Origin: Candidatus Nomurabacteria bacterium GW2011_GWB1_43_19
Lineage (GTDB): Bacteria; Patescibacteriota; Minisyncoccia; Phycocordibacterales; UBA9973
Assembly: GCA_000999465.1 (NCBI GenBank)
Contig: LCGB01000005.1
Coordinates: 1-39,759, forward strand
DNA length: 39,759 bases
Direction of reading: 5' to 3'
Part shown: positions 3,646 to 30,287 of the stretch, in pieces
Layout of the letters: the number at the start of each line of letters is the position of its first letter
Numbering within the stretch: the first letter of the stretch is position 1
Made by a program: the position numbers and the translations under genes
Notes under the pieces: generated by a model
What the model was told of the DNA's origin: nothing
Databases searched by the model: none
The model's input: the letters and a program-made list of their open reading frames with translations, nothing else

Positions 3646-4179
3646 ATGAATAAGAAATCTTCACCCCAAAAAACCAAAAAGGTGGTAATGGTCAGCGGAG
3701 GATTCGACCCGGTGCATATCGGCCATGTGCGGCTTTTCAACGAGGCGAAAAAGTTAGGCGACGAGCTGGTGGTGGTGATTAACAACGACAACTGGCTCCG
3801 GTGCAAGAAGGGATATGTTTTTATGCCGGAGCACGAACGTAAAGAGATTATTGAAGCGTTTCAGGCGGTAGACCGGGTTCTCTTAAGTAGCCATAAGAAG
3901 AATACGAAGGATATGAGTGTTTGCATGGAGTTAATCAGGGTCAGACCTCATGTTTTTGCCAACGGGGGAGACAGAAACGAGAAAGACGCGGACAATCCGG
4001 AGTCCTCGTTGTATCGGGAAAGGCAAATACACAAAAAACTCGGGATAACAATGGTGTATAATGTGGGGTATGGAGGCAAAGTGCGCAGTTCGTCCGAATT
4101 GATAAAAAAAGTGCATAAGAAGATAAGTAAGAATCCCAGTAGTAGAGCAAAGCTCACTACGGGACGAAGGAAAAAATAA
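3646..4179 (+). CDS. cytidylyltransferase-like nucleotidyltransferase (RfaE/HldE C-domain-like)
   Basis: VSGGFDPVHIGHVRLF (HxGH motif); C-terminus encoded by a palindromic element. Confidence 0.85.
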   Translation: MNKKSSPQKTKKVVMVSGGFDPVHIGHVRLFNEAKKLGDELVVVINNDNWLRCKKGYVFMPEHERKEIIEAFQAVDRVLLSSHKKNTKDMSVCMELIRVRPHVFANGGDRNEKDADNPESSLYRERQIHKKLGITMVYNVGYGGKVRSSSELIKKVHKKISKNPSSRAKLTTGRRKK

Positions 4180-4180
4180 A

Positions 4181-4936
4181 ATGTTGCCATTAGACCAAAT
4201 GTCGCGAAAAGATATCAGCCGGATTAAGATGATTGTTTTTGACGTTGACGGAGTGCTGGTTCCGCGGGGCACCAAGATAAAGCAGGTTGGCCATACCACT
4301 ACCCTGCAGACGAAAGTAATCAGTAAAAAACAAATCGAACAAATCAAAGCGCTCAATAAAAAAGGATTTTTAATAAATATCAGTTCGGGGCGGGGGCTTT
4401 ACATGTTGCAGGAAATGTTTCGGGAAATCCTGCCTTTTGTCAGTTTAACTTACGAATGCGGCAGCGCCACCTGGTATCGGGGGAAAATTTACCAGCACAT
4501 CAACAGCTTTGAACGCTTGCGAAAAGTATTTCCCAAGTTGCAGCGGGTAGCGGACAAAAACAAAAATGTGAAAGGATTTGAACCCAAAGAGTTCATCATC
4601 ACCGTGCATTGCAAAAGAAAGTTAAAAGAGATTGAAAAAACGGTTAAAAAAGAAAAAGGTCTGACTACCCACTGGAACGGCGAGGCCTACGACGTCTTAA
4701 TCACAAAAGACCAAACTAAAGCGCTTGGCTTGAAGCAGGCGATGAAAATCTTTAAGTTGAGGAAGGAGAATGTCATGGCTATCGGGGACAATTACAACGA
4801 CCATGAGCTTCTTGGGGCCAGCGGAATTCCCATTTCAGCCGACAAAAGCAGGGTAAAAGGTAAATTTTATGTTTCTCTGCGGGGGAAGTTCCTGCCGGCG
4901 GACAAATTAATGCAAAGAATCCTGGAACTCAAGTAA
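4181..4936 (+). CDS. HAD-superfamily hydrolase (sugar phosphatase-like)
   Basis: MIVFDVDGVLV; AIGDNYNDHELL motif. Confidence 0.85.
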   Translation: MLPLDQMSRKDISRIKMIVFDVDGVLVPRGTKIKQVGHTTTLQTKVISKKQIEQIKALNKKGFLINISSGRGLYMLQEMFREILPFVSLTYECGSATWYRGKIYQHINSFERLRKVFPKLQRVADKNKNVKGFEPKEFIITVHCKRKLKEIEKTVKKEKGLTTHWNGEAYDVLITKDQTKALGLKQAMKIFKLRKENVMAIGDNYNDHELLGASGIPISADKSRVKGKFYVSLRGKFLPADKLMQRILELK

Positions 4937-4978
4937 TAAAATTGGTTTTAAAGTCATAAAGGGTTATAATGTCTGAAT

Positions 4979-5329
4979 ATGGGAAAATTTAAGATATTTC
5001 AAGAGGAACGCCCTTGGGGGAATTTTCGGCAGTTAACCCACAATAGTTTTTCAACGGTAAAAGTGATTTCAATAGACCCGGAAAGTTCCCTGAGTCTGCA
5101 ATATCACAACAATCGTTCGGAATTTTGGCGGGTTCTTTCCGGCCATCCGCTTTTAACCATTGGTGAAAAAATAATCACCGCCAAGCCCGGTGACGAATTT
5201 ATGATTAAAAAACAGCAAAAACACCGCATTGAAACGAAAAACGACAGCGCGCAACTCCTGGAAATTTCCTCCGGCGACTTTGACGAAGAAGACATTATTA
5301 GGATAGAAGACAAATATGGCCGCGCTTAA
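4979..5329 (+). CDS. mannose-6-phosphate isomerase type II-like cupin
   Basis: RPWGNFRQL, SLQYHNNRSEFWRVLSG, KPGDEFMIKKQQKHRIE. Confidence 0.85.
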   Translation: MGKFKIFQEERPWGNFRQLTHNSFSTVKVISIDPESSLSLQYHNNRSEFWRVLSGHPLLTIGEKIITAKPGDEFMIKKQQKHRIETKNDSAQLLEISSGDFDEEDIIRIEDKYGRA

Positions 5330-6521
5330 AAAAAATCCCAGTAGTAGAGCAAAGCTCACTACGGGACAAAGAAAAGTAATACTTGCCCGCCATAGCCTTG
5401 GCGAAGGCGGGAAGAAGAAAACCAAAGTTGTTGTCAGGCGGAAAACAGCGGTCAAGAAAGCGGTTGCAAAAAAGAAAACTTCCCCGCTGGAGCTCAGGAA
5501 GTCCCAAAAAAATCCAATTATTGAGCCGGAGCGAAGCGCGTATTGGGAATCAAAAGCGACTTTTAATCCGAGCGCCGTTTACAGCGACGGAAAAGTGCAT
5601 GTCATTTACCGGGCTATTGGCGACAGCGACATTTCCGTACTAGGTTATGCCAGAAGCGACAACGGCTATTTGTTTGATAAAAATTCAAAAAAAATAGCCT
5701 ATTACCAAAAAGGAAAATTCGCGGTCAGAAAAGATGCGGTTAAAATTAACTACATATCCGGCGGCGGATGGGGCGGCGGGTGCGAAGACCCGCGGCTGAC
5801 GCTTCTGAGTGATAAAGTATATATGCTTTACACGGCGTTTGACGGATGGGGGTCCGTGCGAATTGCCCTTACCTCCATCAGCCTGGATGATTTTATCGGC
5901 AGGCGATTTGACTGGAAAGAACCGGTCTTGATTTCTCCTCCGGGAGAAATCCACAAAAATTGGGTACTTTTTCCGGAAAAGATAAAGGGCAAATACGCGA
6001 TTTTGCACAGCATTTCCCCGCACATCATGATAGATTATTTTTCTTCCCTGGATGAACTGGATGGCGAGAATTTTATACACAGCGTTCATCAGGGCAGTTC
6101 CCTGTGGTCCGCGCGGGATAGGCTAATCAGAGGCGTTGGGCCTGCGCCAATTAAGACAAAATACGGATGGCTGGTCCTCTACCATAAAATGGAAAAACAC
6201 GACTCGCACCGATATAAGCTCTGGGCGATGATTTTGGATTTAAAAGACCCGGCTAAAATTTTATATAATTCCAGGCATCCGATTCTGGAACCGGACGAAT
6301 GGTATGAGAATGAGGGATATAAAGCTGGCGTGGTGTATGCCTGCGGAGCGGTGGTCAAACCCGCCCGACCGGACGACTCCAGTCGTTCGGGCGGGGACGA
6401 GCTTTTCGTTTATTATGGCGGCGCGGACAAGGTCTCTTGCGTGGCCACGGCCAATCTGGACGCATTCTTGAAAGAACTGGTTTATTCCGGCGCGTCCAAA
6501 TTAAAAAGCAGAAAGAGTTAA
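5316..6521 (+). CDS. GH130-family beta-mannoside phosphorylase-like protein with basic N-terminal extension
   Basis: NPIIEP...YWESKATFNPSAVY, GCEDPRLTLL, HKNWVLFPEK, ELFVYYGGAD. Confidence 0.85.
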   Translation: MAALKKNPSSRAKLTTGQRKVILARHSLGEGGKKKTKVVVRRKTAVKKAVAKKKTSPLELRKSQKNPIIEPERSAYWESKATFNPSAVYSDGKVHVIYRAIGDSDISVLGYARSDNGYLFDKNSKKIAYYQKGKFAVRKDAVKINYISGGGWGGGCEDPRLTLLSDKVYMLYTAFDGWGSVRIALTSISLDDFIGRRFDWKEPVLISPPGEIHKNWVLFPEKIKGKYAILHSISPHIMIDYFSSLDELDGENFIHSVHQGSSLWSARDRLIRGVGPAPIKTKYGWLVLYHKMEKHDSHRYKLWAMILDLKDPAKILYNSRHPILEPDEWYENEGYKAGVVYACGAVVKPARPDDSSRSGGDELFVYYGGADKVSCVATANLDAFLKELVYSGASKLKSRKS

Positions 6522-11379: not shown

Positions 11380-12270
11380 TTAACCGAAATTTTTATAATC
11401 AATTTCTTTTCCGCTCTCGGGAATCACTTTTTTTATGACAAATTTCCCATCTTGGAGCGCGGCGTCGGTGACAATAATTCGTTTGCCGTCTTTTCCTCCA
11501 GAGGCGGATCCGCCTTTGGCGGAAAAAAAGAAAGTCCTGGGCCAGTGCGCGTAGGCACGGAATTTGTTGTAATTTTTTACCGCGTCGTCATCCAAGTCCA
11601 GTAGCCCGTCCTCCTTTTTTATTTTCGCGCAGTATGTTGCTTTACTTTCATCTTGCGGCACTTCTTTAATTTTTTCGTCCGCCAAGTCCGGCAAAATTTT
11701 TATCAGCAGCTCCCCGCCGATTTTTATCAGGCGAGTTCGCAACTCGGGGGCCTTCTCGTCCGGCGGTATCGCCGTTTTTTCCGTTGCGATAATCGGGCCC
11801 GAATCCATCTTATATGTCATTTTTTGGATAGTTATGCCGGTTTCCGTGTCGCCGTTTAAAATTGCGGATTCCACGGGGGAAGCCCCGCGGTATTTGGGGA
11901 GCAGAGAATAGTGAATGTTGATAGAGCCATACTTCGGAATATTCAAAATTTCCTCCGGAAGTATTTTTCCGTAAGCGACAATGATAAATAGGTCAAAGTT
12001 TTTACCCTCCCCTATGTCAGACATAGGGGAATTTCCCCTATGTCTGACATAGGGGAGAAGTTCCGCCTGATTTTCCGGCTGGATGTACGGAATCTTGTTT
12101 TTCTCCGCCCAGACCTTGACCGGCGGGGGAGTGATGAGCATTTTGCGCCCTTGGGGCTTGTCGGGAGAGGTAATAATCAAAGACGGCAGATAGCCGTTCT
12201 CTTTCAAGATTTGGAGAGTCTCCGAGGCCACATCCGGGGTTCCGAAAAATGCAAAATTTGATTTATTCAT
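11380..12270 (-). CDS. fmt: methionyl-tRNA formyltransferase with two in-frame palindrome-encoded insertions
   Basis: FFGTPDVASETLQIL, VVAYGKILPEEIL-like, NIHYSLLPKYRGASPVESAILNGD. Confidence 0.95.
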   Translation of the reverse strand: MNKSNFAFFGTPDVASETLQILKENGYLPSLIITSPDKPQGRKMLITPPPVKVWAEKNKIPYIQPENQAELLPYVRHRGNSPMSDIGEGKNFDLFIIVAYGKILPEEILNIPKYGSINIHYSLLPKYRGASPVESAILNGDTETGITIQKMTYKMDSGPIIATEKTAIPPDEKAPELRTRLIKIGGELLIKILPDLADEKIKEVPQDESKATYCAKIKKEDGLLDLDDDAVKNYNKFRAYAHWPRTFFFSAKGGSASGGKDGKRIIVTDAALQDGKFVIKKVIPESGKEIDYKNFG

Positions 12271-24474: not shown

Positions 24475-24996
24475 ATGAATACAGGAGAACTGCCCGCCAG
24501 AGGCGGGTCCGCCCTTGGCGGAAAAATCTGTATTGGCACGGACCATGCGGGATATGTGCTCAAAGAAAAACTTGTTTCCTTCCTGAAGCTTCAAGGGTAT
24601 GAAGTCGTGGACAAGGGCGCTTTTGAATACAACGAGGAAGATGATTATCCGGATTTTGTTGTTCCTGTCGCGCATGAGGTTTCCAAAAATCCCGACAAAG
24701 TGAAGGGCATTATTTTAGGAGGCACGGGAGAAGGAGAGGCTATCACTGCCAACAGGTTTCCTCATGTTAGAGCCGTTGTTGATTATGGCAATGCGAAGCC
24801 CATTGTGGACGATGAGTCCAATATAATTGTCCGGTCCAGGGAACATAATAACGCGAACGTCCTTTCTTTGGGCGCCAGATATTTTACCGAGGAGAGCATG
24901 ATGGAAACCGTAAATCTCTGGCTCAACACGCCTTTCAACAGGGACGAAAGGCACATTCGCCGCTTGGCGAAAATTGACGCGATAAAAATAGATTAA
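24475..24996 (+). CDS. rpiB: ribose-5-phosphate isomerase B with palindrome-encoded N-terminal extension
   Basis: KICIGTDHAGYVLKEKL, GIILGGTGEGEAITANR. Confidence 0.9.
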   Translation: MNTGELPARGGSALGGKICIGTDHAGYVLKEKLVSFLKLQGYEVVDKGAFEYNEEDDYPDFVVPVAHEVSKNPDKVKGIILGGTGEGEAITANRFPHVRAVVDYGNAKPIVDDESNIIVRSREHNNANVLSLGARYFTEESMMETVNLWLNTPFNRDERHIRRLAKIDAIKID

Positions 24997-30189: not shown

Positions 30190-30190
30190 T

Positions 30191-30238
30191 TCCCCTATGT
30201 CTGACATATGGGAATTTCCATATGTCAGACATAGGGGA
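30191..30238. repeat. double palindrome TCCCCTATGTCTGACATATGGGA-ATT-TCCATATGTCAGACATAGGGGA
   Basis: Same element as in fmt (12008-12056), here intergenic. Confidence 0.9.
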
Positions 30239-30287
30239 AGAGAATGATATTCTGGCTTATGGGAGCATATTTTGCTATATTCTAGAG

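Follow-up and report, generated by a model that had tools for sequence, protein, structure and literature searches.

A short, dispersed and non-autonomous palindromic element of the REP/RPE kind very probably spreads as DNA through the genomes of Patescibacteria. At the level of sequence comparison, its dispersal, its presence or absence at orthologous sites, its in-frame coding and the preserved pairing of its hairpin are demonstrated. The starting point was the window, i.e., the whole stretch of 39,759 nucleotides analysed here, from a contig (LCGB01000005.1) of Candidatus Nomurabacteria bacterium GW2011_GWB1_43_19, for which the initial annotation had described one 31-nt palindrome as encoding the same peptide in two unrelated proteins, and had proposed a dispersing DNA element tolerating coding insertion, like the Rickettsia palindromic elements (RPE).

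An exact search bore out the two verbatim copies of the 31-mer, both on the forward strand (Table 1), and found no further copy with up to three mismatches in the window, the expectation from shuffled sequence being 0; another contig of the same genome bears a third copy, one mismatch away (G000:C10:5333-5363). The fold that had been claimed, namely CCC.GTAGT.GAGC-AAA-GCTC.ACTAC.GGG, holds, the hairpin having a minimum free energy of -16.3 kcal/mol and a z-score of -3.85. Both copies are read in one and the same frame, and translation together with Pfam confirmed the common peptide, NPSSRAKLTTG(R/Q)RK, within the C-terminal end of the nucleotidyltransferase (NPSSRAKLTTGRRKK*) and the N-terminal start of the GH130 protein (MAALKKNPSSRAKLTTGQRK).

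Table 1. Element copies, genes and neighbouring palindrome at the locus (positions in the window).
Feature	Position	Strand	Remark
Palindromic element, copy 1	4134..4164	+	In-frame, towards the 3′ end of the nucleotidyltransferase gene; encodes NPSSRAKLTTG
Palindromic element, copy 2	5336..5366	+	In-frame, Lys-rich N-terminal tail of the GH130 protein
Nucleotidyltransferase (CTP_transf_like, Pfam)	3646..4179	+	Copy 1 as C-terminal tail
HAD-like hydrolase	4181..4936	+	Start codon 16 nt 3′ of copy 1
Cupin (MannoseP_isomer)	4979..5329	+	Stop overlaps GH130 start; adjoins copy 2 upstream
GH130 protein (Glyco_hydro_130, Pfam)	5316..6521	+	Copy 2 in N-terminal tail
Different palindrome, TTGCCCGCCATAGCCTTGGCGAAGGCGGG	5381..5411	+	In-frame directly 3′ of copy 2, GH130 tail; absent from orthologs

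The peptide is not universal among the orthologs of either protein. Within the genus, copy 1 occurs in 2/30 nucleotidyltransferase orthologs, i.e., that of the window (G000) and that of G093, where two paired stem changes preserve the hairpin. The stop/start junction with the following gene, TAAaATG, is common to G000 and several orthologs devoid of copy 1, which places the insertion inside the nucleotidyltransferase gene. As for the GH130 protein, several orthologs have the same start, ATGGCCGCG, overlapping the cupin stop codon and followed by a Lys-rich tail; the conserved ATG, at 5316, is upstream of copy 2, which by this comparison lies in translated sequence. This tail holds no element in G093 and G081; in G025, G071 and G011, palindromes of another type (TCCCGA...TCGGGA) occupy roughly the position of copy 2, and in the window copy 2 is followed by the second, unrelated palindrome of Table 1. 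Within the GH130 domain itself, a GC-rich palindrome, CCCGCCCGACCGG...CCAGTCGTTCGGGCGGG, occurs in-frame at 6360-6400 and encodes the peptide KPARPDDSSRSGGDE, so that, with the two tail palindromes, a single GH130 protein carries three palindromic inserts.

Other palindromes are found elsewhere in the window. The methionyl-tRNA formyltransferase (Fmt) gene (11380-12270, reverse strand) contains two, both in-frame, at 12007-12057 and 11491-11526; the Fmt peptide HRGNSPMSDIGEGKN is an insertion respective to solved Fmt structures, and the second palindrome encodes FFFSAKGGSASGGKDG. The palindrome at 11495, CCGCCAGAGGCGG...CCGCC(T)TTGGCGG, is present again at 24494-24526, where it gives an in-frame N-terminal extension (MNTGELPARGGSALGGK) to an RpiB-like protein (24475-24996). 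Just upstream of GlmS, at 30190-30239, lies a palindrome pair, TCCCCTATGTCTGACATATGGGA, sister of the Fmt one, into which ORF calling wrongly stretches GlmS (MSDIGEEN...).

The core of the element is a 31-nt hairpin, YCCC-A-GTAG(T/C)-A-GAGC-(2-3 nt loop)-GCTC-(A/G)CTAC-GGGR, with two unpaired (bulged) A in its 5′ arm, and the flanks are unconserved except for an A at -2 and a weak-to-moderate CANG just 3′ of the core. In an alignment (A2) of 55 distinct sequences, which leans towards the model, double-sided pair changes were counted in 57 cells against 13.9 in shuffles; these double changes concern 8 of the 13 pairs, and 97.5% of the cells are paired. In the phylum set, the variable stem pair is T-A in 76 copies, C-G in 45 and otherwise in 2. 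Variants with longer inner stems are present in the same genome, and some copies form inverted pairs (L179, L222), as REPs do. In the Kazan division and others (L188, L225, L254, L266, L271), a larger palindrome, GATCCTGGAC...AAGCCAGGATGACG, has the element in its loop and ends in CGTC on the other strand; more than 20 near-identical copies of such nested palindromes were observed in one genome.

A covariance model, trained on the 20 copies that the bare 31-mer had retrieved, gave 13 matches at E<=0.05 in the genome of the window and 19 at a loose cut-off of E<=10. In the genus (Ca. Nomurabacteria), the element was found in 63/80 genomes, with up to 34 copies per genome, and went undetected at the cut-off used in the other 17; in an even sample of 294 Patescibacteria genomes searched at E<=1e-5, 34 gave a match and 260 gave none at that cut-off. 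Over 85,488 species genomes, a degenerate 29-nt pattern, which itself fixes many core positions, matched at least 119 stretches, including Kazan, WWE3, Zambryski-, Uhr-, Magasanik-, Azam-, Colwell- and other bacteria, and the 31-mer, taken with its close variants, is thus not confined to the two loci of the window. Among the matches listed (80), nearly all bear Patescibacteria group names or are labelled simply as bacteria, the two named non-Patescibacteria exceptions being PVC MAGs (3 and 6 model matches per genome). Two IMG/VR contigs carry the element as well. The core hardly varies between distant classes, in sequences retrieved by a pattern with many positions already fixed.

Across the phylum, 54/127 copies lie inside greedy ORF calls, of which the short ones are unreliable, 28 in sense and 26 in antisense. 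The long ORFs with the element correspond to UvrC, HsdS, DinB, a class V aminotransferase, RuvB, TrmD, TopA, a histidine kinase, TpiA, PheT, LeuRS, RF2, a PEP synthase-like protein, LepA, RarA, SecA, a PIF1-like helicase and RNase R. LeuRS has the element at three independent sites, and in alignments to solved structures the peptide stands out as inserted in or near RF2, TrmD, RarA and TpiA; copies at the extreme N-terminus (RuvB, LepA, aminotransferase, PEP synthase-like and RNase R) may lie upstream of the true start. With copies throughout the genus and in-frame insertions in many genes, the proposal of a dispersing DNA element that tolerates coding insertion gains support.

Four frames of the element are open, three of them hydrophilic (PSSRAKLTTG, PVVEQSSLRG and SRSELxSTTG) and one hydrophobic (PVVSFALLLG). 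In ORFs of at least 180 aa (n=26), the hydrophilic frames are used 11, 8 and 7 times and the hydrophobic one never, the probability of which under equal frame use is 0.0006; the hydrophobic frame appears six times in short, mostly spurious ORFs. Such avoidance in the long ORFs bears the mark of selection on translated insertions. Coding copies are presumably located at the protein surface. Besides, in the element-bearing proteins of L231 and L214, other repeated peptides resemble coding palindromic repeats, namely DPVRNKISNG, HPELVEG...FDAAQGD and DPSTDSGQAKG, and the LeuRS of L214 has a NUDIX domain inside.

In RF2, 18 residues ahead of the SPF motif, lies a loop that many congeners have without any insert (EIKGKNAYGTLK). 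Across species of the genus, no fewer than five distinct palindromes occupy it, namely the 31-nt element in G034, a CCCTCCCCTT/AAGGGGAGGG palindrome in G030, G087 and G021, a CCAAAGC/GCTTTGG palindrome in G063 and G023, a ACGGAGGC/GCCTCCGT palindrome in G072 and a CCCCTCTCCAAGCT/AGCTTGGAGAGGGG palindrome in G031. Filled and empty loops interleave on the tree, a quick one based on a short stretch. This pattern is explicable either by independent insertion events in a loop that tolerates them or by turnover of an insertion already present in the ancestor, and the GPYG that follows the insert in all filled RF2 genes leaves room for the latter. The element tail, GGCAAGG, coincides with GGCAAGG in the related G071 gene, a single case that hints at a possible target tetranucleotide.

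Most copies in the genus are intergenic, in sense orientation and just before start codons, which refines the earlier reading. Between co-directional genes, 27 sense copies stand against 3 antisense ones, and the hairpin precedes the next same-strand start by 8-17 nt in 20 of the 29 measured gaps; copy 1, at 16 nt from the ATG of the HAD-like hydrolase gene, fits the same placement. Part of this intergenic set derives from a model whose flank was taken from sense copies, and the same picture emerges from the 20 copies retrieved with the bare 31-mer. Since coding copies exhibit no strand bias, insertion is probably indifferent to strand and the intergenic sense bias would reflect selection on the transcript. 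The same placement, together with a conserved ACAAG and A-rich flank and with the paired changes that keep the hairpin, speaks in favour of a conserved cis-regulatory RNA leader acting on translation or mRNA stability, the coding copies then being accidents. Such a leader nonetheless appears unlikely, as the downstream genes have no evident common function (ribosomal proteins, HisS, DnaX, ABC ATPases and others), dozens of copies lie deep within ORFs, half of them antisense, and the sites are mostly not common to orthologs; a known RNA family was rejected, the Rfam search of the window giving no match above family gathering threshold.

Some copies have particular neighbours. In L159 and L200, they adjoin partial tRNA copies (Gln, Pro) with an intact tRNA gene nearby; insertion into tRNA genes was rejected because ARAGORN finds intact and unaffected tRNA genes next to the element, and the tRNA-like flanks are thus best read as partial tRNA copies. 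In L098 and L233, the element is preceded by a partial, diverged repeat of the gatB 5′ end and followed by the complete gatB gene, an arrangement that looks like a duplication of about 35 nt upon insertion.

A site of the operator or nucleoid type, bound by a conserved protein and spread by recombination and gene conversion, is a still poorer candidate: selection for a bound protein could conceivably underlie the near-invariance of the core across distant classes, considered with the fixed positions of the search pattern in mind, but the element escapes detection at the cut-offs used in 17/80 congeneric and 260/294 phylum genomes, and operators are not expected in-frame inside essential proteins. 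That the window copies, identical 31-mers 1.2 kb apart, result from one recent local duplication is extremely improbable and was rejected, since the similarity between the two places ends at 45 nt with the A-rich flank, which is not the extent of a segmental duplication, a third copy lies on another contig, copies occur in 63/80 genomes of the genus and G093 has copy 1 without copy 2.

Under the favoured reading, i.e., a palindromic element spreading as DNA, insertion would take place in and between genes and in either orientation. Copies breaking proteins would be lost; genic survivors would persist in tails and surface-type loops, in the frames giving hydrophilic peptides, and intergenic survivors in the genus, mostly sense and 8-17 nt before a start codon, would form mRNA leader hairpins. 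As for the enzyme, an IS200/IS605-like Y1 transposase might act in trans on the single-stranded hairpin, which is our best guess and a tentative one. Y1_Tnp genes above the Pfam cut-off are present in 54/80 genomes of the genus, their count correlates with that of the element (rho 0.40, p 3e-4, for raw counts ignoring phylogeny and genome size), and all 15 genomes with at least 10 copies have at least three Y1_Tnp genes each; some genomes possess Y1_Tnp genes without elements (11 and 0, respectively, in G001). No enrichment of the element was seen beside Y1_Tnp genes, 20 such loci of about 3 kb giving a single strong match for about 0.5 expected from the genus density, and a REPtron arrangement was rejected on these 20 loci. 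No transposition event was observed, and neither an exact target site nor a clean target duplication was definable, since outside coding sequence the divergence between relatives is too great. In its fullest form, the scenario would involve a near-invariant hairpin mobilised in trans through much of the Patescibacteria, which, along with unrelated palindrome families, inserts peptides repeatedly at preferred protein loops, and whose copies between genes now serve, by co-option, as translation-leader hairpins; taken as a whole, it is possible, with the chances somewhat against it.

In-frame palindromic insertion was known before from Rickettsia and Wolbachia, and from a set of genomes rich in REPs; it is now found in many lineages of a large reduced-genome phylum, where a single element sequence can be recognised in groups from Kazan through to Nomurabacteria. 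The RF2 loop, with its different palindromes per species, constitutes a natural experiment on proteins absorbing inserted DNA. There is also a warning for annotation, namely that unusual peptides and extended protein ends in annotated Patescibacteria genomes are in many cases DNA repeats and not protein features. No report of palindromes or REPs in Patescibacteria was found in the part of the literature that was searched.

GTAG- and CGTC-tagged REPs have been described with intragenic copies in several bacteria, the intragenic CGTC repeats of R. conorii corresponding to RPE-4 and RPE-6 (PMC3733652). Like the present element, these REPs are hairpins of 20-40 bp, single or in inverted pairs, located in and between genes, many of them in repair and replication genes. 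The tag of the GTAG REP superfamily is absent here as an unpaired end, GTAG being within the stem and paired with CTAC, and no CGTC tag is found at the core ends in the window copies or the consensus, the Kazan copies being enclosed by a CGTC-type outer palindrome. Described uni-REPs adjoin the upstream gene at its 3′ end, their distance to the following gene being variable, whereas the genus copies hug the next start codon. With REPtrons and their RAYT (IS200/IS605 Y1), the element has in common the bulged-base hairpin and a genus where Y1_Tnp genes are common and vary in number with the element, but it differs in not being enriched beside them.

With the palindromic elements of Rickettsia and Wolbachia, the likeness is one of behaviour. 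There as here, short dispersed palindromes occur in-frame in housekeeping genes and add a peptide to unrelated proteins whose orthologs are without it; the present element is a dispersed palindromic repeat with many copies per genome, inserted in-frame in conserved protein genes. The RPE-like interpretation of the initial annotation is in this respect supported and largely right, descent forming no part of the likeness. Unlike RPE, the element occurs in other taxa, has a core shorter than RPE-1, lacks the terminal CGTC tag reported for R. conorii RPE sequences (PMC3733652) and displays one sequence common to a phylum. Its unusual traits are precisely this spread over a phylum and the insertion sites it has in common with unrelated palindromes.
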